Of a DNA stretch of 41,358 bases, positions 3,343 through 22,358 are shown piece by piece (positions within the stretch are counted from its first letter, which is position 1; each line of letters opens with the position of its first letter). The DNA lies in the IMG/VR virus record IMGVR_UViG_3300028800_000175, positions 1 through 41,358 of that record; one strand, given 5' to 3'. Origin of the DNA: a virus. Below the pieces are notes generated by a model. That model was not told where the DNA came from and searched no databases. It was given only the letters and a program-made list of their open reading frames with translations. The translations under genes were made by a program, and so were the position numbers.

Positions 3343-4254
3343 ATGGCCACAACAGCGTTCTTCAGAGGTCAGCAGCTCGGCAGGCAGGACCTCAACATCT
3401 ACCTGACGAACATCAACGGCACACCCGTCAACGCCGCTGAGGTCAGCTACGCCCTATACGACGTCACAACCGGTGTCGAGGTCCTGGTGGGGCCCACGCA
3501 TCGTGTGCCCGCGAACCCCTCAGTGGGCGAGTACTACGCCAGCATCATCATCCCTCTGGACGCCAACATCGGTAGCTATCGCATCCGCTGGTGCTTCCGG
3601 GAAATCGTCGGCGGCCCACTCCAGCAGGTCGTCATGAACTTCTCGGTCATCGACAAGGTGTCGCGAGGGCATGATGGTGGTGAGGGCGGCTACGAGATGG
3701 ACCACCACGAGCGAGATCTCACTCGTCGCTTGCGGGTCATGCTGCGCGACAACAACCCGGATAGGAACTACCACTTCCGGCCGCCGGCCCACGAGGAGAC
3801 GGTCTCGCAGTACAGCCGCGTGTTCGGCTTCATCTGGGAGGACACTGAACTCCTGGACTACATGTTCTTTGCCCTCAACGATATCATCGCGGCCCCACCC
3901 AAGACACCCTTCGCCAACATCGCTCAGATGGTGCAGAGCTTCCCTGAGTGGAGGACGATGCTTCTGACGGGCGCCACGTACTACGCCTTGCAAGCCATCC
4001 GAGCCAACTGGATCGCTGACGAGTTCGACTACAGCATCGGCGGGGTCTCGCTCAACCTGGAGAAGGCGTCCAAGTACGAGGGCGCTCAGCAGGCCGCGGG
4101 CGAGCACTTCCAGACGCAGCTCGAAAAGGGCAAGGCGACCGTGAACTACCTCAAGGGCGTCCAGCAGCCCAAGTACGGCACCGGTATCCGAAGCGCCTTT
4201 GGGCCCTACGCAGGTAGGGGGGTCCTAAGTCCCCGCAAGTTCGTCGGGTTCTAG
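3343..4254 (+). CDS. Putative neck/virion protein with N-terminal beta-domain
   Basis: 303 residues; ATG 3343 follows GGAAAG at a good distance. Residues about 24-106 form a beta-sandwich-like domain (VSYALYDV, VGPTHRVP, VGEYYAS, YRIRWCFRE, FSVID) that matches the C-terminal domain of the repeat protein ending at 2725. The remainder is mostly helical, with LTRRLRVMLRDNNPDRNYHFRPP-like charge pattern at residues 125-147 and an acidic-aromatic stretch (FIWEDTELLDYMFF). This layout resembles conserved neck-region proteins of large myoviruses, but I cannot name the family with certainty. The shared domain suggests that the two proteins bind the same or adjacent ring in the virion. An accumulation of GGGG runs at 4216-4222 lies inside the coding region and has no clear meaning. 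Confidence 0.75.
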   Translation: MATTAFFRGQQLGRQDLNIYLTNINGTPVNAAEVSYALYDVTTGVEVLVGPTHRVPANPSVGEYYASIIIPLDANIGSYRIRWCFREIVGGPLQQVVMNFSVIDKVSRGHDGGEGGYEMDHHERDLTRRLRVMLRDNNPDRNYHFRPPAHEETVSQYSRVFGFIWEDTELLDYMFFALNDIIAAPPKTPFANIAQMVQSFPEWRTMLLTGATYYALQAIRANWIADEFDYSIGGVSLNLEKASKYEGAQQAAGEHFQTQLEKGKATVNYLKGVQQPKYGTGIRSAFGPYAGRGVLSPRKFVGF

Positions 4255-4653: not shown

Positions 4654-5235
4654 ATGTCGTACGCCTCAAACAGGGACCGGAAGCCGATCGAGCTGGAGTA
4701 TTCCAGGGCGCCGTGGCCTATCTCGCCCTTGAACTTCTTCATGCGCAGCGGGTACAAGCCGGGCGCGTACGACCTCACTTGGGACGATCCCGGCATCCTG
4801 TCGATCAACGGCCGGTTCAACATCTTGGGGGTCAACATCTACCGGTCGTTCGACTCGGAGTTTGGCCCCTACGAGCGCGTGAACCAGCTACCGATCGGGT
4901 CTCGCTACTGGAAAGACCACACGAACAACGACCTCGTGACAGACGAGGATGTATCGAGCCGCTGGATGATCTTCGGTGAGCAGAGCACGGGCATGGCCGG
5001 CTACGGCCCTCGCTATGTCTTCAAGACCCTCTTCAACCCCATCGTCAAGGAGGCGTCGCAGCAGATCTATGCCAACTCCCCCCATGACGTGCAGGTCCTC
5101 GTGGACGGCGTACAAGTGCCTGTCCTGCGTGTGGACGGCCAGACCGGTGAGGTGGAGATCGATGTCCGCCGGTACCCCGACACGGGAACGCAGAACTATC
5201 TCCCACGGTGGTCCCCTCGTCAACGAGTGTTGTGA
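4654..5235 (+). CDS. Fibronectin-III-like neck protein, N-terminal part (apparently frameshifted)
   Basis: 193 residues as read. Residues about 35-95 look like a fibronectin type III fold: YDLTWDDP, then FNILGVNIYRS, GPYERVN and PIGSRYWKD, the usual pattern of strands B, C, C' and E. Residues 145-180 give a paired-strand motif, VLVDGVQVPVLRV then GQTGEVEID, which in phage structural proteins is normally completed by a strand like VTVSYRY. That strand (VVTCSYRY) is found in the -1 frame just after base 5208, while this frame ends in the unconvincing PRWSPRQRVL. The natural product is therefore probably a fusion with the next entry. Either a real -1 frameshift, a recent mutation or a sequencing indel near 5203-5216 would explain it. 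A neck role is inferred from gene order. Confidence 0.75.
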   Translation: MSYASNRDRKPIELEYSRAPWPISPLNFFMRSGYKPGAYDLTWDDPGILSINGRFNILGVNIYRSFDSEFGPYERVNQLPIGSRYWKDHTNNDLVTDEDVSSRWMIFGEQSTGMAGYGPRYVFKTLFNPIVKEASQQIYANSPHDVQVLVDGVQVPVLRVDGQTGEVEIDVRRYPDTGTQNYLPRWSPRQRVL

Positions 5236-6014
5236 CGTGCTCCTACCGGTACACGAAGACGCTTGTGCGCACGGACCTCGTGCAAAGGGTCTTCTATCTC
5301 GTCACCACGGTGGGCATCCCTGTGAATCACAGCACGAGTGTTGTGCAGTCGCAGGTCCCCATGGAGACGCCGCTAGAACACGCGACTGGCACCAACTCCT
5401 ACGAGCTGGAGAAGATCGACTGGATCTGGAAGGAAGCCGCGCGGCGTAACCGTTGGATGCTGGAGCAGGCCGGTGAACGCGTGAAGCTCTTCCTGCGCAA
5501 GCAGGTCGGCATTACGTGCCCGTGTATCCCGGACGACGTACACAAGCAGCCAGTCAACAATGATCCCCTTTGTTACGGGACAGGTATCATTGGGGGTTAC
5601 GAAGGGCCGTACGACATCATCATTGCGCCCGACGATTCGGAGAAGCGCATCTCCCAGAAGGAGACAGGGCGCACGGTCGAGCACACGTACGAGTCGTGGA
5701 CGGGTCCCACTCCGTTGCTCGCGCACCGGGACTTCTTCGTGAAGATCAACGGTGAGCGGTACTCCATCGGCGCAGTCCGTATGCCGACGAGTCGAGGTAT
5801 GGTCCTGCAACAGCACTTCACGGTCGGACACTTCGACGAGAAGGATATACGCCACAAGGTGCCTGTCGATAACCCCGTCAAGTACATGGCGGTGGAGTTC
5901 AGGCCCTCTGGTCCTGAGCAAGAGGCCAGCACAGAGATCACGAACAAGCCGGACATCCCCGCAGAGCGCCAGCTTCGTGGTGAGACTGATGCTTGGGGGA
6001 ACACGGAGTACTGA
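5208..6014 (+). CDS. Neck protein, C-terminal part of the split gene
   Basis: 268 codons from a nominal GTG at 5208, which has no ribosome binding site; the in-frame ATG 5361 would cut off a well-formed segment. The first residues (SVVTCSYRYTKT, then LVRTDLVQRVFY) complete the strand motif left unfinished by the gene at 4654, so I read the two as one protein of about 450 residues. The later part has CPCIPDD (residues about 105-111) and an isolated further Cys, then beta-rich sequence typical of virion proteins. It ends with TGA overlapping the next ATG (TGATG at 6012-6016), so the downstream gene is translationally coupled. No catalytic motif is recognised. Confidence 0.75.
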   Translation: MVPSSTSVVTCSYRYTKTLVRTDLVQRVFYLVTTVGIPVNHSTSVVQSQVPMETPLEHATGTNSYELEKIDWIWKEAARRNRWMLEQAGERVKLFLRKQVGITCPCIPDDVHKQPVNNDPLCYGTGIIGGYEGPYDIIIAPDDSEKRISQKETGRTVEHTYESWTGPTPLLAHRDFFVKINGERYSIGAVRMPTSRGMVLQQHFTVGHFDEKDIRHKVPVDNPVKYMAVEFRPSGPEQEASTEITNKPDIPAERQLRGETDAWGNTEY

Positions 6015-6514
6015 TGCAACGCACACGTGTCAGTGGCGTACAGCTGAAGCCGTTGGCCGGGGAGGACCTGAGGGTCGATCCGGAGACGGTCCTTCGCAAG
6101 CTCAAGGCGGAGTTGAACCGGCGCTTGAAGGCCCGGCTGCTCAACACTCCGGCCTTCTCAGACCGGGCCCGCAAGTCGTTGGCGAAGTCCATCCAGATCA
6201 AGATCTTCCCGAACAGCCTGCTGATCACGACCAACCATCCAGGCTTCATGCCCCTTCTCAATGGGCGTCGGAAGGTCCAGATGAAGTGGCTCGTCAAGGC
6301 CAGGGTACCGATCCCTATCACGCTGGACTCCGGGGAGATCATCTTCCGATGGGCCACTCCTCAGTCGATGGCCAACGGCAGCTGGTGGCACCCGGGACGT
6401 AAGCGTGTGGACTTCGTGACCAAGGCTAAGCAAGAGGCTCGGAAGATCATCCGCGAGCGTATGGCGGCCGCAGCGGTCGCTCAGCTTCGCAGTGCCATTC
6501 GAGGTCGATTCTGA
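6014..6514 (+). CDS. Putative tail-completion / HK97 gp10-like neck protein
   Basis: 166 residues from ATG 6014, chosen over a TTG at 5993 because GGAG at 6005-6008 lies 5 bases upstream and the ATG overlaps the previous stop. The protein has a helical N-terminal half (LRKLKAELNRRLKARLL), a central strand region, and the stretch FRWATPQSM followed by GSWWHPGRK at about residues 115-135. An 'FRT-S ... W-HPG' pattern of this kind is typical of small phage tail-completion or tail-terminator-region proteins of the HK97 gp10 type. The C-terminus is a helix with a basic end. Assignment rests on this motif, the length and the position among neck genes. Confidence 0.6.
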   Translation: MQRTRVSGVQLKPLAGEDLRVDPETVLRKLKAELNRRLKARLLNTPAFSDRARKSLAKSIQIKIFPNSLLITTNHPGFMPLLNGRRKVQMKWLVKARVPIPITLDSGEIIFRWATPQSMANGSWWHPGRKRVDFVTKAKQEARKIIRERMAAAAVAQLRSAIRGRF

Positions 6515-7491: not shown

Positions 7492-8268
7492 GTGAGTGGC
7501 AAGCGCTCTGCCATTGATCCGTACGCGGGCAATCACGCCGACTCGATCTACGCGGTCTGGCACGATCCCACGACGTACGACCACCTGAAGATGGGGCCCC
7601 CCTATCTTCCGGGGCCCCATGACAGCAAGGCACAGGGGCGTCCGAAGGAGGCCTCTGAGGTCCCTGACAGTGACTCCTTGGCCGAGGTGCGCGCACTCGT
7701 CGCCAAGGAGGCTGCAAACGAGGACGTGGCGAACGTCCTCATGCACTTCCTGCTCGACTACGGCGACCAGTCGATGGCGGAGCTGGCTGCCCTTCTGACG
7801 TACCTGCGGGCGCTGGGGTTCATCCACCAGACGCATCACTGGCAGACCCGGGGTGGCTCGTTCTACGCCGACCACCTGCTCTTCGACCGTCTCTACAACG
7901 AGACGCTCCCGCTCATCGACAAGCTTGCAGAGCGGGCGGTGGGGGCTGGCACTCCCCTGCTCGTGAACCCGGTCATCCAGAGCACGCATCAGCTCCTCAT
8001 CATCAAGGACCTGTACAACGCCGCACCCATGCAGGCGGATCCTGACCAGTGCGTGCTCATCTCCCTCAAGGGTGTCCTGCGGTTCCTTGTGCTCTTGAGG
8101 GTCGCCTACGAGCTTCTGGAGAAGAAGGGCCTGCTCTCCCACGGCATCGACAATCTGCTCCAAGACGTCGCTGACCAGAGCGAGGGGTTCGTTTATCTAC
8201 TCAAGCAACGTACAGGTATTGCAGGACTCAAGGGCGTAAAGACAGCTTCCGACTGGAAGACCAAGTGA
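7492..8268 (+). CDS. Dps-like ferritin-family protein
   Basis: 258 residues from GTG 7492, with GAGG at 7477-7480. The core (residues about 78-240) is a four-helix bundle. The key segment holds HHW at 115-117, H128, D143 and E147. The spacings H116-H128 (12), H128-D143 (15) and D143-E147 (4) equal those of the inter-subunit ferroxidase ligands of E. coli Dps (H51, H63, D78, E82), and LAERAV copies the Dps MAERAV stretch. This supports an iron-oxidising Dps fold that normally forms 12-subunit shells and can protect DNA. A Pro-rich 60-residue N-terminal extension is not usual for Dps. Its place within virion genes suggests either a packaged protein or a late-expressed protector; both are inference. 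A hairpin follows the stop. Confidence 0.8.
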   Translation: MSGKRSAIDPYAGNHADSIYAVWHDPTTYDHLKMGPPYLPGPHDSKAQGRPKEASEVPDSDSLAEVRALVAKEAANEDVANVLMHFLLDYGDQSMAELAALLTYLRALGFIHQTHHWQTRGGSFYADHLLFDRLYNETLPLIDKLAERAVGAGTPLLVNPVIQSTHQLLIIKDLYNAAPMQADPDQCVLISLKGVLRFLVLLRVAYELLEKKGLLSHGIDNLLQDVADQSEGFVYLLKQRTGIAGLKGVKTASDWKTK

Positions 8269-8289: not shown

Positions 8290-8297
8290 CAGATGAG

Positions 8298-8303
8298 AGA
8301 GGA
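8298..8303 (+). promoter_or_regulatory. Ribosome binding site deciding the start at 8309
   Basis: AGAGGA runs into ATG 8303 but lies 5 bases before ATG 8309, so the second ATG is preferred. The same double-ATG arrangement occurs at 4316/4322. Confidence 0.65.
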
Positions 8304-8308
8304 TGCAC

Positions 8309-9334
8309 ATGTCAACGGAACAGACTCAATCCAGGAAGGGTGTTGGTATTGACATCGGCACGATGAATATCGTTGCCGCGCGCCAGGTGGGCGACAAGGT
8401 CTCTACCAACCGTATCCGCGACGCCTTCATCGATCTGGAGCCGGAGGCCAAGAAGCAGCTCCGACTCTCGAAGGTGGACTACATCGAGATGGGCGAGAGC
8501 CAGCTCATCGTCATCGGCGACTCAGCGCTGACGATGGCCAACCTCTTCAAGCGGGAGGTGCGCCGACCCCTCAGCAACGGCGTCATCGCCGCCGGAGAAC
8601 TCAAGGCTCAGCAGATCCTGAGCTTGCTCGTCAAGAGTGTGTTGGAGGAGCCTTCGTGCAAGGACGAGCACTGCTTCTACAGCGTGCCTGCCGCACCCGT
8701 GGACATGGCGGACCAGGACGTCGTCTACCACACAGAGATCTTCCGCAAGATCATCACGGAGCACGGCTTCACGGCGCATCCGATGAATGAGGCGATGGCC
8801 ATCATCTACAGCCAGTGCGCTGACGAGACCTTCTCGGGTCTGTCCGTCTCCTTCGGTTCAGGTATGTGCAATGTGGCCCTTGCATACCAGACCATCAAGG
8901 GACTGGACTTCTCCCTCGCTCGCGGGGGTGACTGGGTGGATTCCCATGCCGCAAAGGCAACCGGCTCCACGGCCTCTCGCATGTGCTCCATCAAGGAGAA
9001 GGGCGTGGATCTCGCGCACCCCAAGGAAGGGGACCGCGATGCAGAGGCGATCTCGCTCTACATCCGTGCGCTCGTGCGTCACTGCCTGGAGAACATCGCG
9101 GTGCAGTTCCGTAAGGCTCAAGCCAGCATCGAGCTGCCGGGTCCCATCCCGTTCGTCGTCTCGGGCGGAACCAGCAAGGCAGGCGGATTCGAGGAGGTCT
9201 TCAAGTCGGAGTTCTCCGAGATCAAGAAGAAGGGCTTCCCGATCGAGATCAGTGAGATCCGGATGGCCAAGGATCCCATGACCGCTGTCGCAGAAGGCCT
9301 GCTGGTCCTCGCGATGGAAGAGCACTCTAGCTGA
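8309..9334 (+). CDS. Actin/Hsp70-fold ATPase (actin-like protein)
   Basis: 341 residues from ATG 8309. All landmark motifs of the actin-Hsp70 superfamily appear in order: phosphate-1 GVGIDIGTMN (11-20), connect-1 MNEAMAIIYS (159-168), phosphate-2 VSFGSGMCNVAL (180-191), a RGGDWVDSHA segment (205-214) like the GGD loop of Hsp70 and MreB, the adenosine motif VVSGGTSKAGG (283-293), and connect-2 DPMTAVAEGLL (322-332). The length suits a bare actin-like core (MreB/ParM size) with no substrate-binding domain. The phosphate-2 aspartate expected at position 181 is Ser, which may slow or alter hydrolysis. Filament formation, DNA or virion positioning, or a chaperone role are all open. It sits in a virion operon next to the Dps-like gene. 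Confidence 0.8.
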   Translation: MSTEQTQSRKGVGIDIGTMNIVAARQVGDKVSTNRIRDAFIDLEPEAKKQLRLSKVDYIEMGESQLIVIGDSALTMANLFKREVRRPLSNGVIAAGELKAQQILSLLVKSVLEEPSCKDEHCFYSVPAAPVDMADQDVVYHTEIFRKIITEHGFTAHPMNEAMAIIYSQCADETFSGLSVSFGSGMCNVALAYQTIKGLDFSLARGGDWVDSHAAKATGSTASRMCSIKEKGVDLAHPKEGDRDAEAISLYIRALVRHCLENIAVQFRKAQASIELPGPIPFVVSGGTSKAGGFEEVFKSEFSEIKKKGFPIEISEIRMAKDPMTAVAEGLLVLAMEEHSS

Positions 9335-9352: not shown

Positions 9353-10546
9353 ATGTACTACTACATCATCGGTGCGCTCAAGAGACGCATCATCAACGAG
9401 TTGAAGGGCTCGTTCGCGCGGCACCCCATCTACAGCGACATCGTTCCGTATATCCAGAACAAGTACTCCTTCAAGGAGCGGCCGCAGTCCGGCATTGTCG
9501 TCAAGGGATCTAGCGCAAACAAGATCTCTCTGGCCGGTGACAACTTCATGGGCACGGTTGAGAGCCATGTGGGTCTCTTCTACTACGGCACTCCCGCATA
9601 CCCGATCGAGTGGGTGCGTGAAGACCAGGCTGTCCTTGCAAACAATCAAGGGCAGCTGCCTATCCATCCGGGGGTCTACTACATCGAGATCCTCAAGGTA
9701 CCCCAGAACGCCTCAGACGCGGGCTTCTACACGATCGACCCGCTCTTGACGGTACCACAAGAGCCGCTGCTCCACTTCCGGTCTGGCATCGAGACAGAGG
9801 GGCAGCTCCAGAACATACCGGCCCCCGGCACGGTGCGCCTCTACGAGAACGGCAAGTGGCAGCTCACTGAGGGTAAGGACTACAAGGTCAATTACCAGAA
9901 CGGTCAGATCAACTTCACGACGACCTTCAACCCTGGGGCGTACGTCTACGCAGAGTACCGTTACGCAGTCCCCTCGATCGAGAACGTGCCCTTCTTCTGG
10001 AACGTCGCTGACTTCAAGACGTTGCCAGGGGTCATCATGGCTTTCGGCAAGCGTGCGCGCGTCGGGGATAAGGTTGCGGTGGTGGTCTATCCGGATCGCG
10101 TGGATGTGGCCAAAGCGTACGGTGGTAAGTGGGAGGTCTCATTCGAGCTGGACTGCGTGGCGCAGGACCCGATGGCGATGGAAGAGATCTCGGACTTCGC
10201 GATGATGACCCTCTGGGCCGACAAGAAGCCCCTACTGGAAAACGAGGGCATCGAGATCATCGACCTGTCGATGTCTGGCGAGAGTGAAGAGCCCATGGAT
10301 GAGACGGGCGACATCTACATGTACACGGCGTCGCTCTCCCTTCAGTTGCGCGCGGACTGGGAAGTGCACGTGCCCCTGCCTTTCACGATCAGCCGTGTCC
10401 AGCAGCTCAATCCAACCGGTCAACCAGCGAACCCCACGGACCAAAGCTCTGCGGCCGGTCTCATTGGGGGTGTCGCCAGTCCGCTGATCTACCCGACGCT
10501 TCCCTTGTTCAACGGCCGAAACAACGACTTCGAACGGATCATCTGA
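9353..10546 (+). CDS. Large virion structural protein, neck or tail-terminator region
   Basis: 397 residues; ATG 9353 follows GGGGG at 9340-9344. The N-terminal stretch YYYIIGALKRRIINEL is an amphipathic helix and is followed by beta-rich sequence, including EGKDYKVNYQNGQINF then YVYAEYRY (residues about 176-206). This is the common phage hairpin module in which a DY-x-V strand, a NG-turn and an aromatic strand repeat. The second half alternates strands with acidic stretches. No enzyme motif is present. Size, fold type and position just before the sheath gene suggest a neck or tail-terminator protein, but this is a positional inference. The C-terminus is Pro/Gly-rich and probably flexible. 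Confidence 0.65.
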   Translation: MYYYIIGALKRRIINELKGSFARHPIYSDIVPYIQNKYSFKERPQSGIVVKGSSANKISLAGDNFMGTVESHVGLFYYGTPAYPIEWVREDQAVLANNQGQLPIHPGVYYIEILKVPQNASDAGFYTIDPLLTVPQEPLLHFRSGIETEGQLQNIPAPGTVRLYENGKWQLTEGKDYKVNYQNGQINFTTTFNPGAYVYAEYRYAVPSIENVPFFWNVADFKTLPGVIMAFGKRARVGDKVAVVVYPDRVDVAKAYGGKWEVSFELDCVAQDPMAMEEISDFAMMTLWADKKPLLENEGIEIIDLSMSGESEEPMDETGDIYMYTASLSLQLRADWEVHVPLPFTISRVQQLNPTGQPANPTDQSSAAGLIGGVASPLIYPTLPLFNGRNNDFERII

Positions 10547-10553
10547 GGACCCC

Positions 10554-11000
10554 ATGCCCGCGTACACGTTCACATGTGAGGCTTGCAACATCGAGTTCGA
10601 GCGGACCCTCAAGATGGCGGAGCACCTTTCGCATCCGTGTCCCAGCTGTGGTCAGGACTCAGCCCGGGATTGGGGTTCAGACGCCATGTCCTTTGGGTTC
10701 AAAGGTGACCAGACAGGCTCCACGGCCAACACAGGCGTCCATGACAACGACTATCCGACGGCTGACAAGGTCGTGGGCCGGGATGCGGATGTCCGTTGGG
10801 CCATGATCAATGAGCGGGAGAAGGTGAAGGCAGAAGCACGTCGCCAAGGTGGGACGCACGCCCTCATTCGCCACAACAGCCGCGATTACATTGATTATGA
10901 GCCTATGACACCTGGTGGGCGTACGGCGCGACGTAACCTTGCCAAGGCCGCCATAGAGTCCGTCAGGACGCAGCGAGACGATGGCGGCGAGCATCGCTAG
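10554..11000 (+). CDS. FmdB-type zinc-ribbon protein
   Basis: 148 residues; ATG 10554 with GAGG at 10545-10548 overlapping the previous stop codon. The N-terminus carries a single zinc ribbon with Cys8, Cys11, Cys29 and Cys32 (FTCEACNIEF then PCPSCGQ), the pattern of the FmdB family of small putative regulators. The remaining 110 residues are charged, mostly helical and low in Cys, so only one metal site is expected. FmdB-like ribbons in phages have no settled role; they could bind nucleic acid or aid assembly. Its position immediately upstream of the long sheath leader makes a regulatory role for late genes thinkable, but nothing in the sequence proves it. Confidence 0.75.
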   Translation: MPAYTFTCEACNIEFERTLKMAEHLSHPCPSCGQDSARDWGSDAMSFGFKGDQTGSTANTGVHDNDYPTADKVVGRDADVRWAMINEREKVKAEARRQGGTHALIRHNSRDYIDYEPMTPGGRTARRNLAKAAIESVRTQRDDGGEHR

Positions 11001-11157: not shown

Positions 11158-14100
11158 ATGGCACTCGGCCCGTTCATTTCATACGTTCCGCCCGGCGTTT
11201 ACACGCGGACGCTGACAGACTCCAACGTCTCCAATCTGACGGCTGGTCTTAGGATCCCCGTCATCATTGGCGTGGGGCAGCAGTCGCTGGAAAACGACAA
11301 CGTCGAGATCGTGCGCGGTTCGTCCGGCTCGGCCGACGAGCAGATCGTCAACGAGGACGTGACAGAGGAGTGGGTCGTCAACGCGACGAACCCCCAGGAC
11401 CTCATCCTCGGTGTGCAGACAGGTCTGCTGGTCACGTTCCAGGTCAAGAACTACCCGATCACAAACGGGCAGGGCACCGGGATCGTCAGCAACAACACGA
11501 ACTCCGTGACCGTGACGGTCAACGGGACCCCAGTCGCTCTCGCGTCTGTTGTGGGCGCCACGGGTCTCATCACCCTCCAGGTGCCGACGCAGCCGACCGA
11601 CCAGGTCAACGTCACCTACTACTTCCACCGTGGCGATACCTCGTTCACGGACAACGTCTCGTCTCAGGTCAGCAACAGCCTTGCGACCCTCATCGCCCCG
11701 GCCTTCGAGAACTACGTTGTGGTCGGCGGGCAGAGCGACCAGATCGTCCTCACGGTCAACGGCGTCTCGTCCACGATCAGCCTCGGAGCTGCGTCCTATA
11801 CGGCGCTGGGTCTGGCTGCGGTCGTCAACGCTGCGGGTATCGCAAACCTCGTGGCGTCGGTCTTCGCGGACAATGACGGCCTGAACCACATCCAGTTCTC
11901 TACGACCCAGAACCTTGTTGTCGGCAGCGGCAATGCCAACGGCATCCTCGGGTTCTCGGCCGGAACTGCGACGAAGCGCAATGCATCGTTCCAGGTCTAC
12001 AACATCCCGGTCGTGGACGGCACGGGCGGCGGTGTGACGACGACGGACACCTCGAAGGTGGTCGTCCTGGTCAACAACGTCCAGGTCATCCCGACGAGCC
12101 TCGACGGTGCAAACGGTACGGTGGTGCTGCCCTACGCGCCTGCAACGGGCACGACGGTCACCATCCAGTACTGGGCCAACACCTGGCAGTCCACGTTCGA
12201 CTACCTGCCGAACTCCCAAGTGACCCAGGTGCTCGCATGCGGCATCTCGCCTGGCCGCAACGACTACGTGCAGGGGGTGGACTTCACGATCTCCAACCCC
12301 TCCAAGTCGGTCTCGGTCATCCTCTGGGGAACGAGCTTCATCATCGCTTCGGGTTCGACATCGCCCGGCGCACAGCCGATCGATGACACCCTGATCAGTG
12401 GTCTGCTGATCGACGACAAGCTCTGGCTGGCACCGTGCACCCGAGTGGTGAACACGACGACGATCCCGGCAACGGTCTCGTCCAACCAGTTCACGCTGCC
12501 CGAGGTTCCCACGACCGGAAACGGACGAGACACGCCACTGGGCCTGCCTCTGTACAACTCGGTCACGAACGCTCGCCAAGACCTCGTGACGAACCGTCCG
12601 GACCTCGTGAAGGTCTACGTCGGTCGGTCCTTCCGCGACGCCCTCAACCGTGGTCCTGTCACGGTGACTGCGGTTGACGGTCCTCAGCGGCTCGTCACCC
12701 TGGCGGCTCCGGTTCCGCCCGACTTCGGCGCCTGGGCAACCTTCTGGTACAACCGCATCACGGACGACACCTTCGTCCTGACGTGCACGACGCCTGGTCC
12801 GTTCGGAGCAGGTACGTACACGATCCTCGACGCGAACGAGAACACGAACGCGTGGCAGGTCCGGTTCGGAACGACCACGGGTCTCAGCCAGCCGGTCATC
12901 TGGCCGCGCGGTGTGCAGAGCATCCCCGACGCCTTCATGACTGGAGCCGGTACCCCCGTTGCCGAAATCGTGACGGTGACCTTCGGTACGACAGGCTCCA
13001 ACAACGCGAGCTTCACGAACCGCAACGCTGAGCCGTACTCCTTCTACAGTCCGTCCTCGGCAACGTGGGTCACTGGGGTTAACGGCGTCAACCAGACGAC
13101 CACCCTCTCGAATGCTGTGCGCGGTGTGGTCGTCAGCAAGCATGTGACGCCCGTCCAGAGCGGTGGCGATCAGGGCTACATCCAGATCGCTGCATCTCCT
13201 GCCAACGTCCTCAACCTGAACATCGACGGTACCGCTGTCGCAGTGACCCTGGCAACGGGCGCTCTGACGGGTACGTACGACACCATCACGAGTAACGCCA
13301 CGGTCACAACTTCGACCTCTCAGGTCGGACTTGTGCACCCTGGGGACATCGTCACCTTCGCCTCGCAGGCTGGCACGTTCTACACGGTCCAGACGGTCAC
13401 GAGCGCCCACCTTATCCTGACGGCGGTCTACACGGGCGCCGGTTCGGGAACAGACACCGCTGTCTTCGGATCCGCGTCTGGTGGGTACTACAGCCCTGCC
13501 GCCATCGTGGCCGCGATCAACTACCAGATCGACGTGAACGCGTCCTTCTCGGGCACGGCTCCGAACGCTCTCGCCAACTTCTCCCAGATCGGGTCGAGCC
13601 CTGGCGACGTTCTGTTCTACATCTACAGCTACTCGGTTCCTGCTTCGCTGCCCGGCGGCTTCGACAGCCCCTCGGCAGTCACCATTGAGCAGGGCACTGT
13701 CGAGCACACTCTCGGCTTCCTGACCTTCCAGACGGCCAGTGGCACGACTGGAGCGATCAACAAGCCGGCGACCATCCTCAGCTCGATCGCTGGCACCTAC
13801 AACATCACGGCTGGTGTCAACGACCAGCTCGTGATCATGGTCAACGGGGTCCAGTACACGATCACGCTCCCGAATGGCTCGTCTGTCGCTACTTCGGCGA
13901 TCGTCTCGGCCATCAACGGGACTCCGGGTCTCTCGGGTGTCGCTTCGGCAGGAACCCTCGGGAACCTGAACAAGCTGCGTCTGACGAGCCCGACCAACAC
14001 GGCCGGCTCTTCGGTTGTCATCAACCTCGGATCGGCGAATGCTGTCCTGGGCTTCACGACCAACACTTCGGCGAACCAGACCTTGGTCAACGCCTACGAG

Positions 14101-15660
14101 GTCGTGGACGAGCTGATGGCCACCTCCGGCTTCAAGTCTGGGGCCATCGCGTACGTCGATCAGATCAACGGCCTGAACTACATCACGTTCGAGTCGCTCA
14201 CGCTCGGCGCATCGGCATCGAGCATCGCCTTCGCGAACTCGTCCAACTCGGCGTTCAACCCGACCACCAACATCGGGCTCACTCCGGGCACGGATGGGGA
14301 CAACGGCGAGAACCCGATCGACAGCTTCACGGTCACGTCCTCGAACACCAACGGTTCGGCCGGTGTCGGTTACCCTGGTCAGACGTACATCGACGCGGTG
14401 ACGGGTCTGCGCTTCACGGTGCTCCCGTCCGGCATCGGTAGCTACGGTGGCAGTGGTCACTTCACGCTGCTCGTCTCTCAGACGTTCAACGTGTCCTCGG
14501 CCATCCCCACGTACGCCATCCCGGGTCTTGAGACGACAGTCTCCAACCTGGTCAATGTCGGGACGAACGACACAGGGTCTATCCAGACCTTCAACCCAAG
14601 CGGGACGGCTCCTGCGGTCGGTGACTTCTACTTCGTGTCCTACCTGTACACGAAGCAGGACTTCACGGTCCGGCTCTTCCAGCAGCAGGCCACCATCAAT
14701 GCCAACTTCGGGCCCGTGGCTCCGGAGAACAGGGTGAGCCTCGCGGCCTACCTTGCCATCCTCAACGGTGCGGTTCTCGTCGGGATCAGCCAGGTGCTCG
14801 CAGTGCCGAACACCAATCAGGCGTCGGACGCGAGCTTCATCACGGCCATCCAGAGCCTCGCGACCCCGCTGCCTGGCAACGTGAAGCCCGACATCCTCGT
14901 GCCTCTCGCGACCAGCACGGCGGTCTACGCGTACCTGACCCAGCACTGTGAAGTGCAGTCGAACATCCGCAACCAGAGCGAGCGGATGGGTTTCATCGGG
15001 TTTGCGTCGGGCACCTCGCCGACGAACGCCCAGTCGGTGGTTCGGAGCCTGCTCTCGAACCGCATCATGGCGTTCTACCCGGACTCGTCGGACATCACGC
15101 TTCAGGACGAGACGGGTGCAAGCTACGATAGCATCGTGGACGGTACCTTCTACGCGGCGGCAGTGGCCGGCGCGGGGTGCTCGCCTGCGGTGGACGTCGC
15201 AACCCCCTACGACCGTCGCCGGCTACAGGGCTTCACGAGCATCCCTCGTGTGCTCGACCCAGTGACGGCCAACCAGACGGCAGTCGCGGGCATCACGATC
15301 CTCGAAGAGCTGCAACCGCTCATCCGGGTTCGGGCTGCCCTCACGACGAACATGGCCACGATCCTGACGCGTCTCCCCACGGTGACGCAGATCAGCGACT
15401 TCGTGCAGCAGCAGAGCCGCTTGATCCTGGACTCGTTCGTCGGGACCAAGTTCCTGCTGTCGCGTACCAACGAGGTCACGGTTTCGATGACCGCCCTTCT
15501 CAAGGGCCTCATCGAGGCGCAGATCATCGGCGCGTACACGGGCGTCAACGCGATCGTGGACCCCAACGACCCGACGACCCTCGATTTCACGGCCTACTAC
15601 CAGCCCATCTTCCCGCTGCTCTACCTCGTGCTGACGTTCAACCTCCGCGCGAGCCTCTGA
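11158..15660 (+). CDS. Giant contractile tail sheath protein with inserted beta-modules
   Basis: 1,500 residues, roughly two to three times the usual sheath length. The start has the sheath hallmark FISYVPPGVYTR (residues 6-17). The C-terminal third (from about residue 1,230) carries the typical sheath core, including DILVPLATS, GFIGFAS, FYAAAVAGAG and IRVRAALTTN, and ends in a helix-strand subdomain. In between lie extra modules: two copies of an 80-residue beta-domain (about 93-172 and 280-357), three flagellin-hook-IN-like repeats (about 183-275, 673-870 and 880-977) marked by VNG and LGF, and a TSTSQ module (713-770) set inside the second. Sheath subunits contract around the tube; the insertions probably decorate the outside of the tail. 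GAGG at 11147-11150 supports the start. A strong terminator follows. Confidence 0.85.
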   Translation: MALGPFISYVPPGVYTRTLTDSNVSNLTAGLRIPVIIGVGQQSLENDNVEIVRGSSGSADEQIVNEDVTEEWVVNATNPQDLILGVQTGLLVTFQVKNYPITNGQGTGIVSNNTNSVTVTVNGTPVALASVVGATGLITLQVPTQPTDQVNVTYYFHRGDTSFTDNVSSQVSNSLATLIAPAFENYVVVGGQSDQIVLTVNGVSSTISLGAASYTALGLAAVVNAAGIANLVASVFADNDGLNHIQFSTTQNLVVGSGNANGILGFSAGTATKRNASFQVYNIPVVDGTGGGVTTTDTSKVVVLVNNVQVIPTSLDGANGTVVLPYAPATGTTVTIQYWANTWQSTFDYLPNSQVTQVLACGISPGRNDYVQGVDFTISNPSKSVSVILWGTSFIIASGSTSPGAQPIDDTLISGLLIDDKLWLAPCTRVVNTTTIPATVSSNQFTLPEVPTTGNGRDTPLGLPLYNSVTNARQDLVTNRPDLVKVYVGRSFRDALNRGPVTVTAVDGPQRLVTLAAPVPPDFGAWATFWYNRITDDTFVLTCTTPGPFGAGTYTILDANENTNAWQVRFGTTTGLSQPVIWPRGVQSIPDAFMTGAGTPVAEIVTVTFGTTGSNNASFTNRNAEPYSFYSPSSATWVTGVNGVNQTTTLSNAVRGVVVSKHVTPVQSGGDQGYIQIAASPANVLNLNIDGTAVAVTLATGALTGTYDTITSNATVTTSTSQVGLVHPGDIVTFASQAGTFYTVQTVTSAHLILTAVYTGAGSGTDTAVFGSASGGYYSPAAIVAAINYQIDVNASFSGTAPNALANFSQIGSSPGDVLFYIYSYSVPASLPGGFDSPSAVTIEQGTVEHTLGFLTFQTASGTTGAINKPATILSSIAGTYNITAGVNDQLVIMVNGVQYTITLPNGSSVATSAIVSAINGTPGLSGVASAGTLGNLNKLRLTSPTNTAGSSVVINLGSANAVLGFTTNTSANQTLVNAYEVVDELMATSGFKSGAIAYVDQINGLNYITFESLTLGASASSIAFANSSNSAFNPTTNIGLTPGTDGDNGENPIDSFTVTSSNTNGSAGVGYPGQTYIDAVTGLRFTVLPSGIGSYGGSGHFTLLVSQTFNVSSAIPTYAIPGLETTVSNLVNVGTNDTGSIQTFNPSGTAPAVGDFYFVSYLYTKQDFTVRLFQQQATINANFGPVAPENRVSLAAYLAILNGAVLVGISQVLAVPNTNQASDASFITAIQSLATPLPGNVKPDILVPLATSTAVYAYLTQHCEVQSNIRNQSERMGFIGFASGTSPTNAQSVVRSLLSNRIMAFYPDSSDITLQDETGASYDSIVDGTFYAAAVAGAGCSPAVDVATPYDRRRLQGFTSIPRVLDPVTANQTAVAGITILEELQPLIRVRAALTTNMATILTRLPTVTQISDFVQQQSRLILDSFVGTKFLLSRTNEVTVSMTALLKGLIEAQIIGAYTGVNAIVDPNDPTTLDFTAYYQPIFPLLYLVLTFNLRASL

Positions 15661-15720: not shown

Positions 15721-15752
15721 CCATCTATCGGCTAGTGGGTGTAAGGATAGAG

Positions 15753-18700
15753 ATGGCCATGAGCTACGACCGCCGCACTGCTGCCGAACCCGTCCCGCCC
15801 CACCACGAGGACGTGGAAGATGTCGGTGATCTTGAGGTTGCCGAGTGGGTCGTCCTCATCTTCGCCTATGACACCTACTTCCGGTTCCTGAAGGAGAAGA
15901 CGGGTCTGCACGACCCCATGGATCCCGTGCTCAAGAAGGGCCTGCGCCTTCTCCAGCAGGCCAACTCCCAGAACGGGGCTGCCTTCCACGCGTTCTTGAC
16001 CGGCCACATGCCCAACGAGACGCGCAAGAAGATGCTGGCCAAGGCGTTCCGGTTCTCTACGAGCCGGGCAGGCCTCCCTCGTCAGGCGCTCCAGCTGCGC
16101 AACATCTTCTCCCTCGGAGGTACCGCCACCATCCGCAGGGTCTTCGAGTCCGCACGCGCGAGGCGTGAGGTCAGCCTGGTCATGCAGGCGCAGACCAACG
16201 CTGAGGGCTCGTCTGCGATGAGCCAGATTGCTACTGTCTCGGTTCGCAATGCCCGCACCCGGAACTGGATCGACCTGGCGGCGAAGGTTGCTGGTGCCGG
16301 TGATGTGCAGAACGCCGTGGACGCTGCATCTACGGCGACGCTGGACGACTCGCAGGCGCTCTCCATCGACAACGCCAAGAAGAACTCGGGCCCCATCCTC
16401 AGTGAGGAGACCGGAGCAGCGGCGAAGGATCACTCGGATCGCCTGGCTGTCATCCAGCAGAACGCACAGGAAGCCGCCAAGCGCGCGATGGACGTCAGTG
16501 GTGAGCCGGATGCCCCGCCTACCAAGTCCGAGGTCATCGGCATCGCTACGGCGGCCGCTGCTGCTTCTAAGGCAACTACCGCACCCTCGACCCTGGCACA
16601 TCTGGACCCGGAGCAGCTCGATGCCGCTCTGACAGACGGCAAGGTTCTGGTCCTGGCTGGCGCTGGATCCGGCAAGACCACAACTCTCACGGCTCGTGCG
16701 GCCTATCTGGTCAAGGATCGCAAGGTCAACCCGGCCCGCATCTTCGTTGTGAGCTTCAACCGGAAGGCTGCACGAGACCTTCGTGAGAAGATCGGCGCGC
16801 AGGTCGGCGATGACGCTCTCAAGCAGATGAACGTCGGAACGATGCACGGTATGTTCCGCAAGTTCGTCGTGGAGAACGGCACCCCAGAGGAGAAGGCCAC
16901 ACTGACAACGTGGCTCATGACGCCGCCATCGAAGAAGGCTGGGGATCAGGACCAGCGTGCAGGCCGTGCCCCGTCTCCCGGAGCATTCGGTGGGTACATG
17001 TCCCGTATCTGGAAGGAGTGCAGGGAGGAGGACCCGCCCAGCGGAGCGAAGAATGTCGTGCAGTCGTGGATGATGAACGACATCTCTCCTGCACAAGCCA
17101 GGGCTCTGGCCAACACGGAGGCGGAGCAGGCGCAGGCTGAATGGTACGCATGGCTCAACGGGTTCAAGGGCGTTGACAAGAACTGGAGCCCCCCGTGCAA
17201 GGACACAAAGCCCAAGGCGATGAAGCAGTGGGGGGAGTTCCTCGCGAAGTGGCGTGACAACGGTAGGGCTCGTCTCGGCGACTTCTCGGACATGATCCTC
17301 CTCTTCCGGGACCTGCTCAAGCGCGAGCCCAACGTGCGCAAGCGTGTACAGTCGATGTTCGATCAGGTTCTGGTCGATGAGGCGCAGGACCTGAACCTGG
17401 TACAGCACCAGATCATCGACATGATGTGCGAGCACATCGGCGACGGCTCGGACGGCAAGTCGGAGTGGCTCGTCGGTGATGAAGTTCAGAGCGTCAACCG
17501 CTTCGTCGGCGCTCGACCGGAGCTGCTCACACAGTTCCACGGCAAGCCCGGGTGGAAGACCAAGTCCATCCGAACCAACTACCGCTGCCTGCCAGAAATC
17601 GTCGATCACGCCAACAAGCTCATGACGAACCACCCGCGTGGGGTTCCCATGGAGGCAGTGCCTGACGCGTCCAAGCCGCGTGGGCAGGCCTCGATTGTCG
17701 TTCAGGAGCCGGCCACTCACGCCGCGGGGGCCCTCAGTGTGGTCTCGCAGATCAAGCAGGACGTTGATGCGGGCGCCCCTCTGGAGGACTACGCTGTTCT
17801 GACCCGTACCAACCTGGAGCAGAACGACTTTGAGACTGCCTGCATCATCCAGGGCATCCCGTACGCGCGCAAGGGCGGCACGAGCTTCCTCCGGTCGCCC
17901 GAGACCGTGACGGTGATGAGCTACTTCAACCTCGCTGCCGGCCAGGACTTCGAGCGCATGCAGAAGTCTCTCATCGAGGTCTTGAACAAGCCGAACAGGT
18001 TCTACCTCAAGGCGGGGGAGTCTGAGCGGATCGTCAACGAGGTCGTCGAGAAGAAGGCACGTCAGCTCGGCGTCTCGGCCAAGAACGTCAACCCCATCGA
18101 TCTCTTCAACGATCGCTCCGGCATCAACGCGTTCATGGACGCGATGGACCCCGGTCACCGTTGGGAGAACTGGAAGGTCCGTTCCACGGGCGAGGAGCTG
18201 GAAGCTCTCGGCAGGTCACTCCGTGGCATGCGCGAGTCCGTGGAGGTCGGCAAGGTCTATGACCGTGAGACCGGCAAGGAGAAGCCGTACACGACACAGG
18301 ACCTCTTCGGCGACATCCTCAACGTCAAGGGCGTGCCTGAGCGTCGAGATGCGGAGGCTCCGACGCTACGTGATGTCCTGATGCCGACCTTCGGTAGCCA
18401 CGAGGAGGAAAGCGACGCGCCGGCAGATCCGGACGACGACCCCTCGAAGAAGCCGGTTGGCAACGTAGTCTTCCTCTTCCAGATCGCGCAGCCAGACCCG
18501 GCGAACCCCTCCACCGATCCGAGCGACCCCAAGAAGTTCAAGGCGCGCATCGACAAGCTCGTGTCCGCCTCGAAGGATCTGCGCATCGATCTCGACCAGT
18601 GGGACGCGGATCAGCAGAAGCTGCCTCCGAACGAGCGCAAGCCCCCGCCTTGCGTGACCCTCTCGACTGTTCACTCGGTCAAGGGCGCGCAGTGGAACAA

Positions 18701-19103
18701 CACCTCTGTTGTCATGGCCAAGGGTGTCTTCCCGTACGAGCCCAGGCCTAAGCCGGGGGAGGAAAACCTTCCGCCGGAAGCTCAGGAGCGTCTTGCCAAG
18801 GAGCGCGCAGAGGAGTTCAAGACGGAGCGGCAGCTGGCCTACGTCGCTATGACCCGCGCTGCGAAGAGCTTGACCCTCGTGTGCCCGGCCAAGAGCGTCT
18901 ACGGCCGTGACGCGGGTCCGAGCGTCTTCGTCTCGGAGGCAGGGCTCGCAAAGGGTCAGAACGTGGCGGGCAAGAACGACCCCACGCCCGAGCCCTCCAA
19001 CGCGGCCACTGTCCTTTCCAGCTTCTTCGAGGTCGAAAGCAACGACCCGAGGGCTCCCGAGGACTTCCCGGCAGAACCTGCATACGATCGGAGGCCGTCA
19101 TGA
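15753..19103 (+). CDS. UvrD/Rep-type SF1 DNA helicase with long N-terminal extension
   Basis: 1,116 residues from ATG 15753; AGGA at 15744-15747 favours it over GTG 15735. Motor motifs are complete: Walker A LAGAGSGKTTT (301-311), Ia VVSFNRKAARDL, Walker B DEAQD (542-546), III GDEVQSVNRF (575-584), IV RTNYR (607-611), V TVHSVKGAQW (972-981) and VI AYVAMTRA (1029-1036). This is a 3'-5' superfamily-1 helicase of the UvrD/Rep/PcrA group. The first 290 residues are Ala-rich, mostly helical and unlike the family; the region between motifs IV and V is also enlarged with an acidic linker near 890-905. It sits between sheath and tube genes behind a terminator, an odd place for a replication or repair enzyme. 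It overlaps the next gene by ATGA. Confidence 0.9.
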   Translation: MAMSYDRRTAAEPVPPHHEDVEDVGDLEVAEWVVLIFAYDTYFRFLKEKTGLHDPMDPVLKKGLRLLQQANSQNGAAFHAFLTGHMPNETRKKMLAKAFRFSTSRAGLPRQALQLRNIFSLGGTATIRRVFESARARREVSLVMQAQTNAEGSSAMSQIATVSVRNARTRNWIDLAAKVAGAGDVQNAVDAASTATLDDSQALSIDNAKKNSGPILSEETGAAAKDHSDRLAVIQQNAQEAAKRAMDVSGEPDAPPTKSEVIGIATAAAAASKATTAPSTLAHLDPEQLDAALTDGKVLVLAGAGSGKTTTLTARAAYLVKDRKVNPARIFVVSFNRKAARDLREKIGAQVGDDALKQMNVGTMHGMFRKFVVENGTPEEKATLTTWLMTPPSKKAGDQDQRAGRAPSPGAFGGYMSRIWKECREEDPPSGAKNVVQSWMMNDISPAQARALANTEAEQAQAEWYAWLNGFKGVDKNWSPPCKDTKPKAMKQWGEFLAKWRDNGRARLGDFSDMILLFRDLLKREPNVRKRVQSMFDQVLVDEAQDLNLVQHQIIDMMCEHIGDGSDGKSEWLVGDEVQSVNRFVGARPELLTQFHGKPGWKTKSIRTNYRCLPEIVDHANKLMTNHPRGVPMEAVPDASKPRGQASIVVQEPATHAAGALSVVSQIKQDVDAGAPLEDYAVLTRTNLEQNDFETACIIQGIPYARKGGTSFLRSPETVTVMSYFNLAAGQDFERMQKSLIEVLNKPNRFYLKAGESERIVNEVVEKKARQLGVSAKNVNPIDLFNDRSGINAFMDAMDPGHRWENWKVRSTGEELEALGRSLRGMRESVEVGKVYDRETGKEKPYTTQDLFGDILNVKGVPERRDAEAPTLRDVLMPTFGSHEEESDAPADPDDDPSKKPVGNVVFLFQIAQPDPANPSTDPSDPKKFKARIDKLVSASKDLRIDLDQWDADQQKLPPNERKPPPCVTLSTVHSVKGAQWNNTSVVMAKGVFPYEPRPKPGEENLPPEAQERLAKERAEEFKTERQLAYVAMTRAAKSLTLVCPAKSVYGRDAGPSVFVSEAGLAKGQNVAGKNDPTPEPSNAATVLSSFFEVESNDPRAPEDFPAEPAYDRRPS

Positions 19104-21617: not shown

Positions 21618-22358
21618 ATGCCTGTCTCGACCAGCAACTACATTTACAGGATGGGAACTGCGCCGAACACGCGCGCAGCCGTCTCCCAGAAGAACAAGGT
21701 CTACGGGTATGCCGTCGGTGGAAGCGGGTTCGTGCAGATCGGCGCGATCTCCGAGTTCGGAACCGACGAGTCCCGTACGATCGATCCGGTGCGCGGCGTT
21801 GGCTTCGGTGATCAGATCGCCGAGCTGGTGCCGGGTGTCACTGAGCCGATGACGTTGACCCTCAACAGGACCCTCCTGTACACGGCCAACATCTTCCAGA
21901 CGGTGGGCTACAAGGCGGGCATCGACGGTATCGCCCGCTCGCTCAAGCACCACCGCTGGCCGTTCGACATCAAGCAGGAGCTGGTCATCAGCGAGATCAG
22001 CGTCCAGCAGGATGTCGGCGCGGGTCCGAACGCGCAGCCTGCATCCAACCCGGGCGGTGCTCCGCTCAACCAGTACATCTTCAATCCAGCGACGACCCCG
22101 ATCATCGCGGTCAAGTCCCTCTACACGTTCTTCGAGGGATGCTGGTTCGAGTCGTACAACGCGAGCTACACGTCAGACGCAGCGATGGTGGCCGAGAACT
22201 CCTCGGTCAAGGTCTCTGACGTCATCGACGGCTTCTCGCAGTACGGCGAGTTCATCGACACGGGCCTCGCTCCGATTTCTGCCAACGGGCAGGCGGGCGC
22301 AGGGTTCTCTCTCCGCTTCGCAAGCAACAGCGCAGCGGTCATTCCGGTGCCTGTGTAA
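21618..22358 (+). CDS. Putative tail tube protein
   Basis: 246 residues; ATG 21618 after GAGGG at 21604-21608. The protein is beta-rich and Cys-poor, with YIYRMGTAPNTRAAV at the start, VQIGAISEFGTDESRTIDP and MTLTLNRTLLYTANIF in the first half (residues 35-95). This pattern of a strand-turn-acidic loop followed by a Thr/Leu strand is common in tail tube proteins of myoviruses. Its place downstream of the sheath and just before the chaperones and tape measure is the usual place for a tube. No other tube candidate is seen. It is larger than many tube proteins (about 140-200), with a probable surface insertion near residues 128-165. A hairpin spans its stop codon. Confidence 0.65.
   Translation: MPVSTSNYIYRMGTAPNTRAAVSQKNKVYGYAVGGSGFVQIGAISEFGTDESRTIDPVRGVGFGDQIAELVPGVTEPMTLTLNRTLLYTANIFQTVGYKAGIDGIARSLKHHRWPFDIKQELVISEISVQQDVGAGPNAQPASNPGGAPLNQYIFNPATTPIIAVKSLYTFFEGCWFESYNASYTSDAAMVAENSSVKVSDVIDGFSQYGEFIDTGLAPISANGQAGAGFSLRFASNSAAVIPVPV

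Follow-up and report, generated by a model that had tools for sequence, protein, structure and literature searches.

We found that a gene of a huge contractile-tailed phage, at positions 8309..9334 on the + strand of a virus genome fragment, encodes a protein of 341 amino acids that is, as judged from its Pfam match (PF25216), its AlphaFold model and Foldseek comparisons, a volactin, a cytoskeletal-type ATPase of the actin family. The fragment is IMG/VR virus record IMGVR_UViG_3300028800_000175, and its 41,358 bases are referred to here as the window. The position of volactin within a block of genes that runs from the neck to the tail sheath is fixed throughout a widespread lineage of such phages, which are uncultured. 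The protein is real and belongs to a new, well-supported branch of an actin family that was already known; its location was unexpected, and the constancy of that location is remarkable. The volactin family is widespread in huge phages. Because volactin is fixed between genes that build the neck and genes that build the tail, the sequences suggest that these phages make their own actin filaments during particle assembly.

Family membership and fold

The reading frame at 8309-9334 is open throughout. Another in-frame ATG occurs at 8303, and the sequence GAGAGGA at 8296-8302 suits a start at 8309. Comparison of the window gene with that of its nearest relative, L001, gave a dN of 0.046 versus a dS of 0.77, indicating that the gene is under strong purifying selection.

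A Pfam search matched the protein to Volactin at 248.8 bits (cut-off, 35 bits; E = 1.3e-73), and the match spans residues 12-335, corresponding to profile positions 3-321 of 321. The MreB_Mbl model scored 19.7 bits, which is under its curated cut-off of 27, and neither Hsp70 nor ParM produced a Pfam match. PHROGs offered no useful family for the protein. A search of the PDB with the single volactin sequence returned no match, and a profile was therefore needed to reach a solved structure: with a profile built from 80 family members, MamK was the best match (E 7.5e-8) and FtsA was matched weakly. An AlphaFold2 model calculated with the family alignment (pLDDT 95.4, pTM 0.92) adopts an actin fold, with a single actin-fold unit extending across all 341 residues and no substrate-binding domain. 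When this model was compared with the PDB using Foldseek, the top matches were Mbl/MreB, MamK and BeeR, followed by actins and crenactin. Among predicted viral structures, most of the full-length matches that had a name were Hsp70 homologs of plant viruses and giant viruses.

The initial annotation had described the product as an ATPase of the actin/Hsp70 fold. This description is borne out, with the added precision that the protein falls in a filament-type clade, Volactin, whose nearest solved structures are MreB, MamK and BeeR. A sugar kinase or other metabolic enzyme, named beforehand as the contrary outcome, was absent from the best family and fold matches in Pfam, in the PDB profile search and in Foldseek. 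An Hsp70 chaperone is excluded by domain make-up and by a phylogenetic grouping away from DnaK; an Hsp70-type chaperone role is likewise unlikely, given that the protein lacks a substrate-binding domain and groups with the volactins.

The nucleotide site and the phosphate-2 serine

All five motifs of the superfamily, which had been claimed for this protein, could be located within its 341 residues. To describe their conservation we used an alignment of 143 volactins, comprising 90 from phages, 16 haloarchaeal, 21 planctomycete, 10 magnetococcal and 6 other sequences. The phosphate-1 motif, DIGTMN, occupies residues 15-20 (8351..8368, + strand), and its D15, G17 and T18 are present in 142 of the 143 proteins, with one gap. 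The motif NEAMAI represents the catalytic-Glu/connect-1 region and includes Glu161 (8789..8791, + strand) at the catalytic Glu position of MreB-type actins, which is Glu in 142/143. The adenosine motif SGGTS (residues 285-289; 9161..9175, + strand) has G286 and G287 in every one of the 143 proteins, and the connect-2 motif, DPMTAVAEGL, is found at residues 322-331. Asp208 is kept in 142 of the volactins and Asp211 in all 143.

The phosphate-2 loop reads VSFGSGMCN (residues 180-188; 8846..8872, + strand) and has Ser181 at a position usually taken by Asp. When the family profile is aligned with MamK, this Ser stands opposite the phosphate-2 Asp, and Asn188 opposite a second Asp. The annotation had singled out this loop as altered, and relative to MreB, MamK and Hsp70, which have Asp, it is. 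The change is not peculiar to the window protein, however, but is the rule among volactins: Ser occupies position 181 in 142/143 sequences, including 16/16 from haloarchaea, indicating that the substitution is old and common to the cellular family. A phage-specific mutation of the active site is thus ruled out. The signature S-F-G-x-G-M-x-N is present in the window protein and is common to the haloarchaeal members; the Haloferax volcanii protein HVO_2015 was itself outside the 143-member alignment, and H. volcanii scored above the family cut-off among the control genomes. Since the volactin of H. volcanii forms dynamic filaments in vivo (PMC10869688), Ser181 does not by itself argue for a loss of activity or of polymerization. 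The phosphate-2 serine represents an ancient, tolerated change within an actin active site.

Genes surrounding volactin

The region in which volactin lies is a contractile-tail module. Its gene and those of its immediate neighbors share one strand, with gaps of 40 bp to the upstream gene and 18 bp to the downstream gene, and no match to a sigma-70-type promoter was found between 6400 and 11400; phage promoters may differ from that type. Directly upstream is a gene for a Dps/ferritin-like protein of 258 amino acids (7492..8268, + strand; profile match to Dps structures, E 4e-11; phrog_3636, 3.2e-10). This protein conserves a ferroxidase-like pattern, HxxHW...DH...DxxAER, and is an odd neighbor for tail genes. 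Directly downstream, a 397-residue protein resembling tail terminators and necks (9353..10546, + strand) was recognized by Foldseek from a low-confidence model (pLDDT 65), with matches to the phage 812 neck (E 5.8e-8), the E217 neck and lambda gpU, and further matches to other phage necks and connectors. It is followed by an FmdB-type zinc-ribbon protein of 148 amino acids (10554..11000, + strand; PF09723, 1.6e-9) and by the contractile tail sheath (11158..15660, + strand). At 1500 amino acids (about 1420-1680 in relatives) the sheath is far above typical length, and its match lies in the C-terminal 420 residues (phrog_2839, 2.3e-23; phrog_279, 7e-8). PDB profile searches with this C-terminal part, and with the proteins encoded from 9353, 3343 and 5993, gave no convincing match, and the identity of the sheath was accordingly taken from PHROGs.

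Further upstream, a neck or virion structural protein of 268 amino acids (5208..6014, + strand) matches phrog_2806 at 1.3e-7 and, at 4e-6, phrog_1004, annotated as 'virion structural protein'. A profile search also linked it weakly (E 0.11) to one chain in the entry for the neck of phage 812. A conserved 173-residue protein without a database match (5993..6514, + strand), present in 55/61 loci, is a possible head-tail completion protein on account of its position. Probably also belonging to the head or neck is a 303-residue protein with an Ig-like-looking N-terminus (3343..4254, + strand), which is 45-70% identical across 13 aligned loci and found no match in Pfam, PHROGs or the PDB profile search. 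The window begins with a reading frame open at the contig start (2-2725) that consists mostly of Pro-rich repeats of the type DLPPxDYxxAGxGxPAQ.

Beyond the sheath, the tail module contains a UvrD/Rep-type helicase of 1122 amino acids (15735..19103, + strand; PF00580, 6.8e-44), which is found near the block in some relatives only. A 246-residue protein that has no family match (21618..22358, + strand) is a probable tail tube by position, as it comes after the sheath and ahead of two reading frames that look like tail chaperones and a 1112-residue one resembling a tape measure. A baseplate hub or tail lysozyme-like protein of 736 amino acids is encoded at 34339..36549 (+ strand; phrog_694, 4.4e-5).

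Conservation of the gene order

We counted the neighbors of volactin at 76 distinct viral loci, using as the denominator for each gene the number of loci at which it could be tested. A terminator-like gene follows it on the same strand in 70/73 loci, at a distance of 150 bases or less in 49 of them. Also downstream are the zinc-ribbon gene (65 of 68) and the gene for the tail sheath (57 of 61), and the neck gene is upstream in 55 of 59. The Dps-like gene, found together with volactin in 48/61 loci, is a looser partner than the terminator and the sheath. The tight cluster described in the initial annotation therefore stands, and is deeply conserved, as far as the neck and tail genes are concerned; its link to the Dps-like gene is weaker.

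Likewise, a reverse search that started from the neck gene alone, and so avoided selection on the actin, found volactin 1.2-7.4 kb downstream in 79 of 80 loci. The exceptional locus is L178, where the genes right after the neck gene are ones that elsewhere lie past the sheath. A second locus from the same metagenome, L101, bears the missing block with its actin and lacks the upstream genes. The absence of the block from L178 and its presence in L101 suggest that the stretch from about 5993 to the sheath probably moved as a unit in one phage genome. At L111, the neck gene is kept and there is no terminator-like gene within reach. The most divergent phage volactins, those of L024 (40%) and L028 (28%), sit in other settings without detectable neck or sheath neighbors, and the link to the tail is therefore not universal.

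Distribution and phylogeny

A scan of IMG/VR with a single-sequence query recovered 25 volactin loci. The same scan with a 16-member alignment recovered 512 confirmed stretches, on contigs of up to 618 kb, and the best 80 of these 512 were retained. In the collection of named phages, volactin is present in two huge-phage genomes, LR745208 (485 kb, 52% identity) and LR756511 (595 kb, 28% identity); megablast of the window against the same named phages gave no match. Among cellular genomes, volactin scored above the cut-off in 69/116 from haloarchaea, 49/119 from planctomycetes and 13/41 from Magnetococcia. The volactins of Planctomycetota and Magnetococcia are chromosomal (in G008, G007 and their relatives), and some genomes have two copies. 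Many haloarchaea have a second volactin domain within a much longer open frame of about 770-1260 amino acids, as at G127:C2:301909-302856 and G105:C1:2811698-2812648. None of the neighboring genes of the phages occurred at the haloarchaeal, planctomycete and magnetococcal loci that we examined.

In the phylogenetic tree that the annotation had called for, all volactins form one group with a support of 99/97, apart from MamK, MreB and DnaK. A single origin of all phage volactins was rejected (p-AU 8.7e-9). A single origin of the main phage group, from which L024 and L028 were left out, was not rejected (p 0.38). These two sit on long or separate branches, and the number of acquisitions is uncertain. 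On these sequences, several transfers of volactin between cells and phages are likely to have taken place.

The volactin of L022 (9980-12079) is split by an intein, with matches to Intein_splicing and LAGLIDADG_3, between Arg205 and residue 206 in the conserved motif ARGGDW, and the volactin of L013 has a Cys at the same site and no intein. Two contigs, L029 and L030, had been binned as 'Thermoplasmata archaeon' and 'uncultured bacterium', and their volactins group with those of phages. L030, at least, is probably a misbinned phage, since its contig also bears phage neck and terminator-like genes.

Proposed role and alternative explanations

By analogy with the PhuZ tubulin, we propose that volactin may act as a late-expressed filament that organizes virion assembly or trafficking, a proposal to which we assign about an even chance of being correct. 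Volactin would share a transcript with the neck, tail-terminator and sheath genes, and its production would therefore be late, along with the parts of the virion. It would bind and hydrolyze ATP and assemble into dynamic filaments, as the Haloferax volactin does. Such filaments could then order virion morphogenesis, with filled heads and tails being transported or collected so that they can be joined, in parallel to the movement of capsids by PhuZ in phiKZ-like phages. As its steady partners are the neck protein, the tail terminator and the sheath, the likeliest site of action is head-tail joining, or the place in the cell where this occurs. We searched 20 records of volactin phages (297-618 kb, possibly incomplete) for tubulin, using a model that recognized PhuZ as a control (E 5e-7), and for phiKZ-type chimallin, using one query sequence that could miss distant relatives. 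Neither was detected, a result that fits an alternative, actin-based system in so far as these possibly incomplete records can be relied on. More tentative is the fuller proposition that huge phages of a major lineage possess an actin cytoskeleton of their own, produced together with the neck and tail proteins and moving or gathering heads and tails, as a counterpart of PhuZ with an independent origin. If true, this would be a first among tailed phages for an actin filament system devoted to assembling virions; we would sooner expect the proposition to prove wrong than right.

A gene that keeps its place within a late operon may also encode part of the virion or a chaperone. The main rival explanation, which we consider unlikely on balance, is an actin-fold ATPase that forms no filament and helps to assemble or chaperone the neck, terminator or sheath, with ATP releasing or switching the structural protein. 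Such a function would agree with tail terminator and sheath being the tightest gene neighbors of volactin, and with a block that seems to travel as a whole, being absent from L178 and present in L101. It is less readily reconciled with a protein that is all actin fold and has no Hsp70-like substrate-binding domain, that groups with volactins away from DnaK, and whose sole characterized relative makes filaments. A role as a component of the virion, whether packed in the neck or tail or leaving the particle along with the genome to act early in the next infection, strikes us as doubtful. A dynamic ATPase with all of its catalytic residues kept would be an unusual structural part, even though the gene lies inside the virion structural block and its Dps-like neighbor could be packaged as well.

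Filaments could instead move or segregate phage DNA in the manner of ParM or AlpC, as the AlpC protein of a prophage does together with its adaptor AlpA (PMC4446434). We regard this as quite improbable for the window protein, which gave no ParM match in Pfam and is encoded among late structural genes, whereas alpC is an early gene. Moreover, family searches, which could place only part of the neighboring proteins, revealed no small DNA-binding adaptor next to it, and the 40-bp gap upstream is too small for centromere repeats. Finally, the existence of cellular volactins in Planctomycetota, Magnetococcia and haloarchaea would provide targets for an effector that joins or poisons the volactin or MreB of the host and thereby alters cell shape or division. 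Near-universal retention in a tail operon is atypical of accessory takeover genes, and we consider this explanation very improbable.

Comparison with known systems

Phage cytoskeletons have been studied mainly through tubulins (PhuZ and TubZ), along with a small number of ParM-like actins whose target is DNA. Our search of freely available papers, with few preprints among them, found no report of a phage volactin, so that priority cannot be claimed. Judged by their titles and abstracts, the retrieved papers that mention volactin concern archaea, actin evolution or mechanobiology, and the titles and passages retrieved on huge-phage actins included nothing relevant. In the papers covered, volactin is described from haloarchaea only, and the founding paper makes no mention of phages (PMC10869688). 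Similarly, in a paper on huge phages that deals with tubulins, actin goes unmentioned (PMC7162821), and the reviews consulted on the cell biology of jumbo phages, in which tubulins are the only filaments described, include no such phage actin (PMC13282480, PMC7950403). Through the present analysis, Planctomycetota, Magnetococcia and phages are added to haloarchaea as bearers of volactins. With volactin retained in 79/80 loci of a huge-phage lineage, beside the terminator and sheath genes, a single gene also provides a test of whether phages without PhuZ organize their assembly with actin.

Within the family, the closest point of reference is VolA (HVO_2015) of Haloferax volcanii, which belongs to the same Pfam family and is similar in length to the phage protein. 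The haloarchaeal members compared share the phosphate-2 signature S-F-G-[SA]-G-M-x-N with the phage protein, to which haloarchaeal volactins are about 36% identical. VolA is chromosomal and has a role in cell shape, whereas the phage volactin belongs to a neck and tail operon, where a role in cell shape is not applicable. MamK (by profile and fold) and MreB (by fold) are also similar to the phage volactin. They differ from it in forming a separate clade, in the Ser that the phage protein has for the phosphate-2 Asp and in its Asn for a further Asp, and their fold alignments with it show 15-21% identity.

Two other systems are, like the phage volactin, encoded by phages. AlpC of the prophage CGP3 is likewise a phage-borne actin homolog; unlike what we propose for volactin, it is the product of an early gene and, together with its DNA adaptor, AlpA, takes part in the replication of viral DNA (PMC4446434). 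PhuZ of the phiKZ-like jumbo phages has a tubulin fold, in contrast to the actin fold of the phage volactin. Capsids travel along PhuZ in phiKZ-like phages, according to a work cited in PMC13282480, and the placing or moving of capsids is a role that these two phage-encoded cytoskeletal proteins may have in common.
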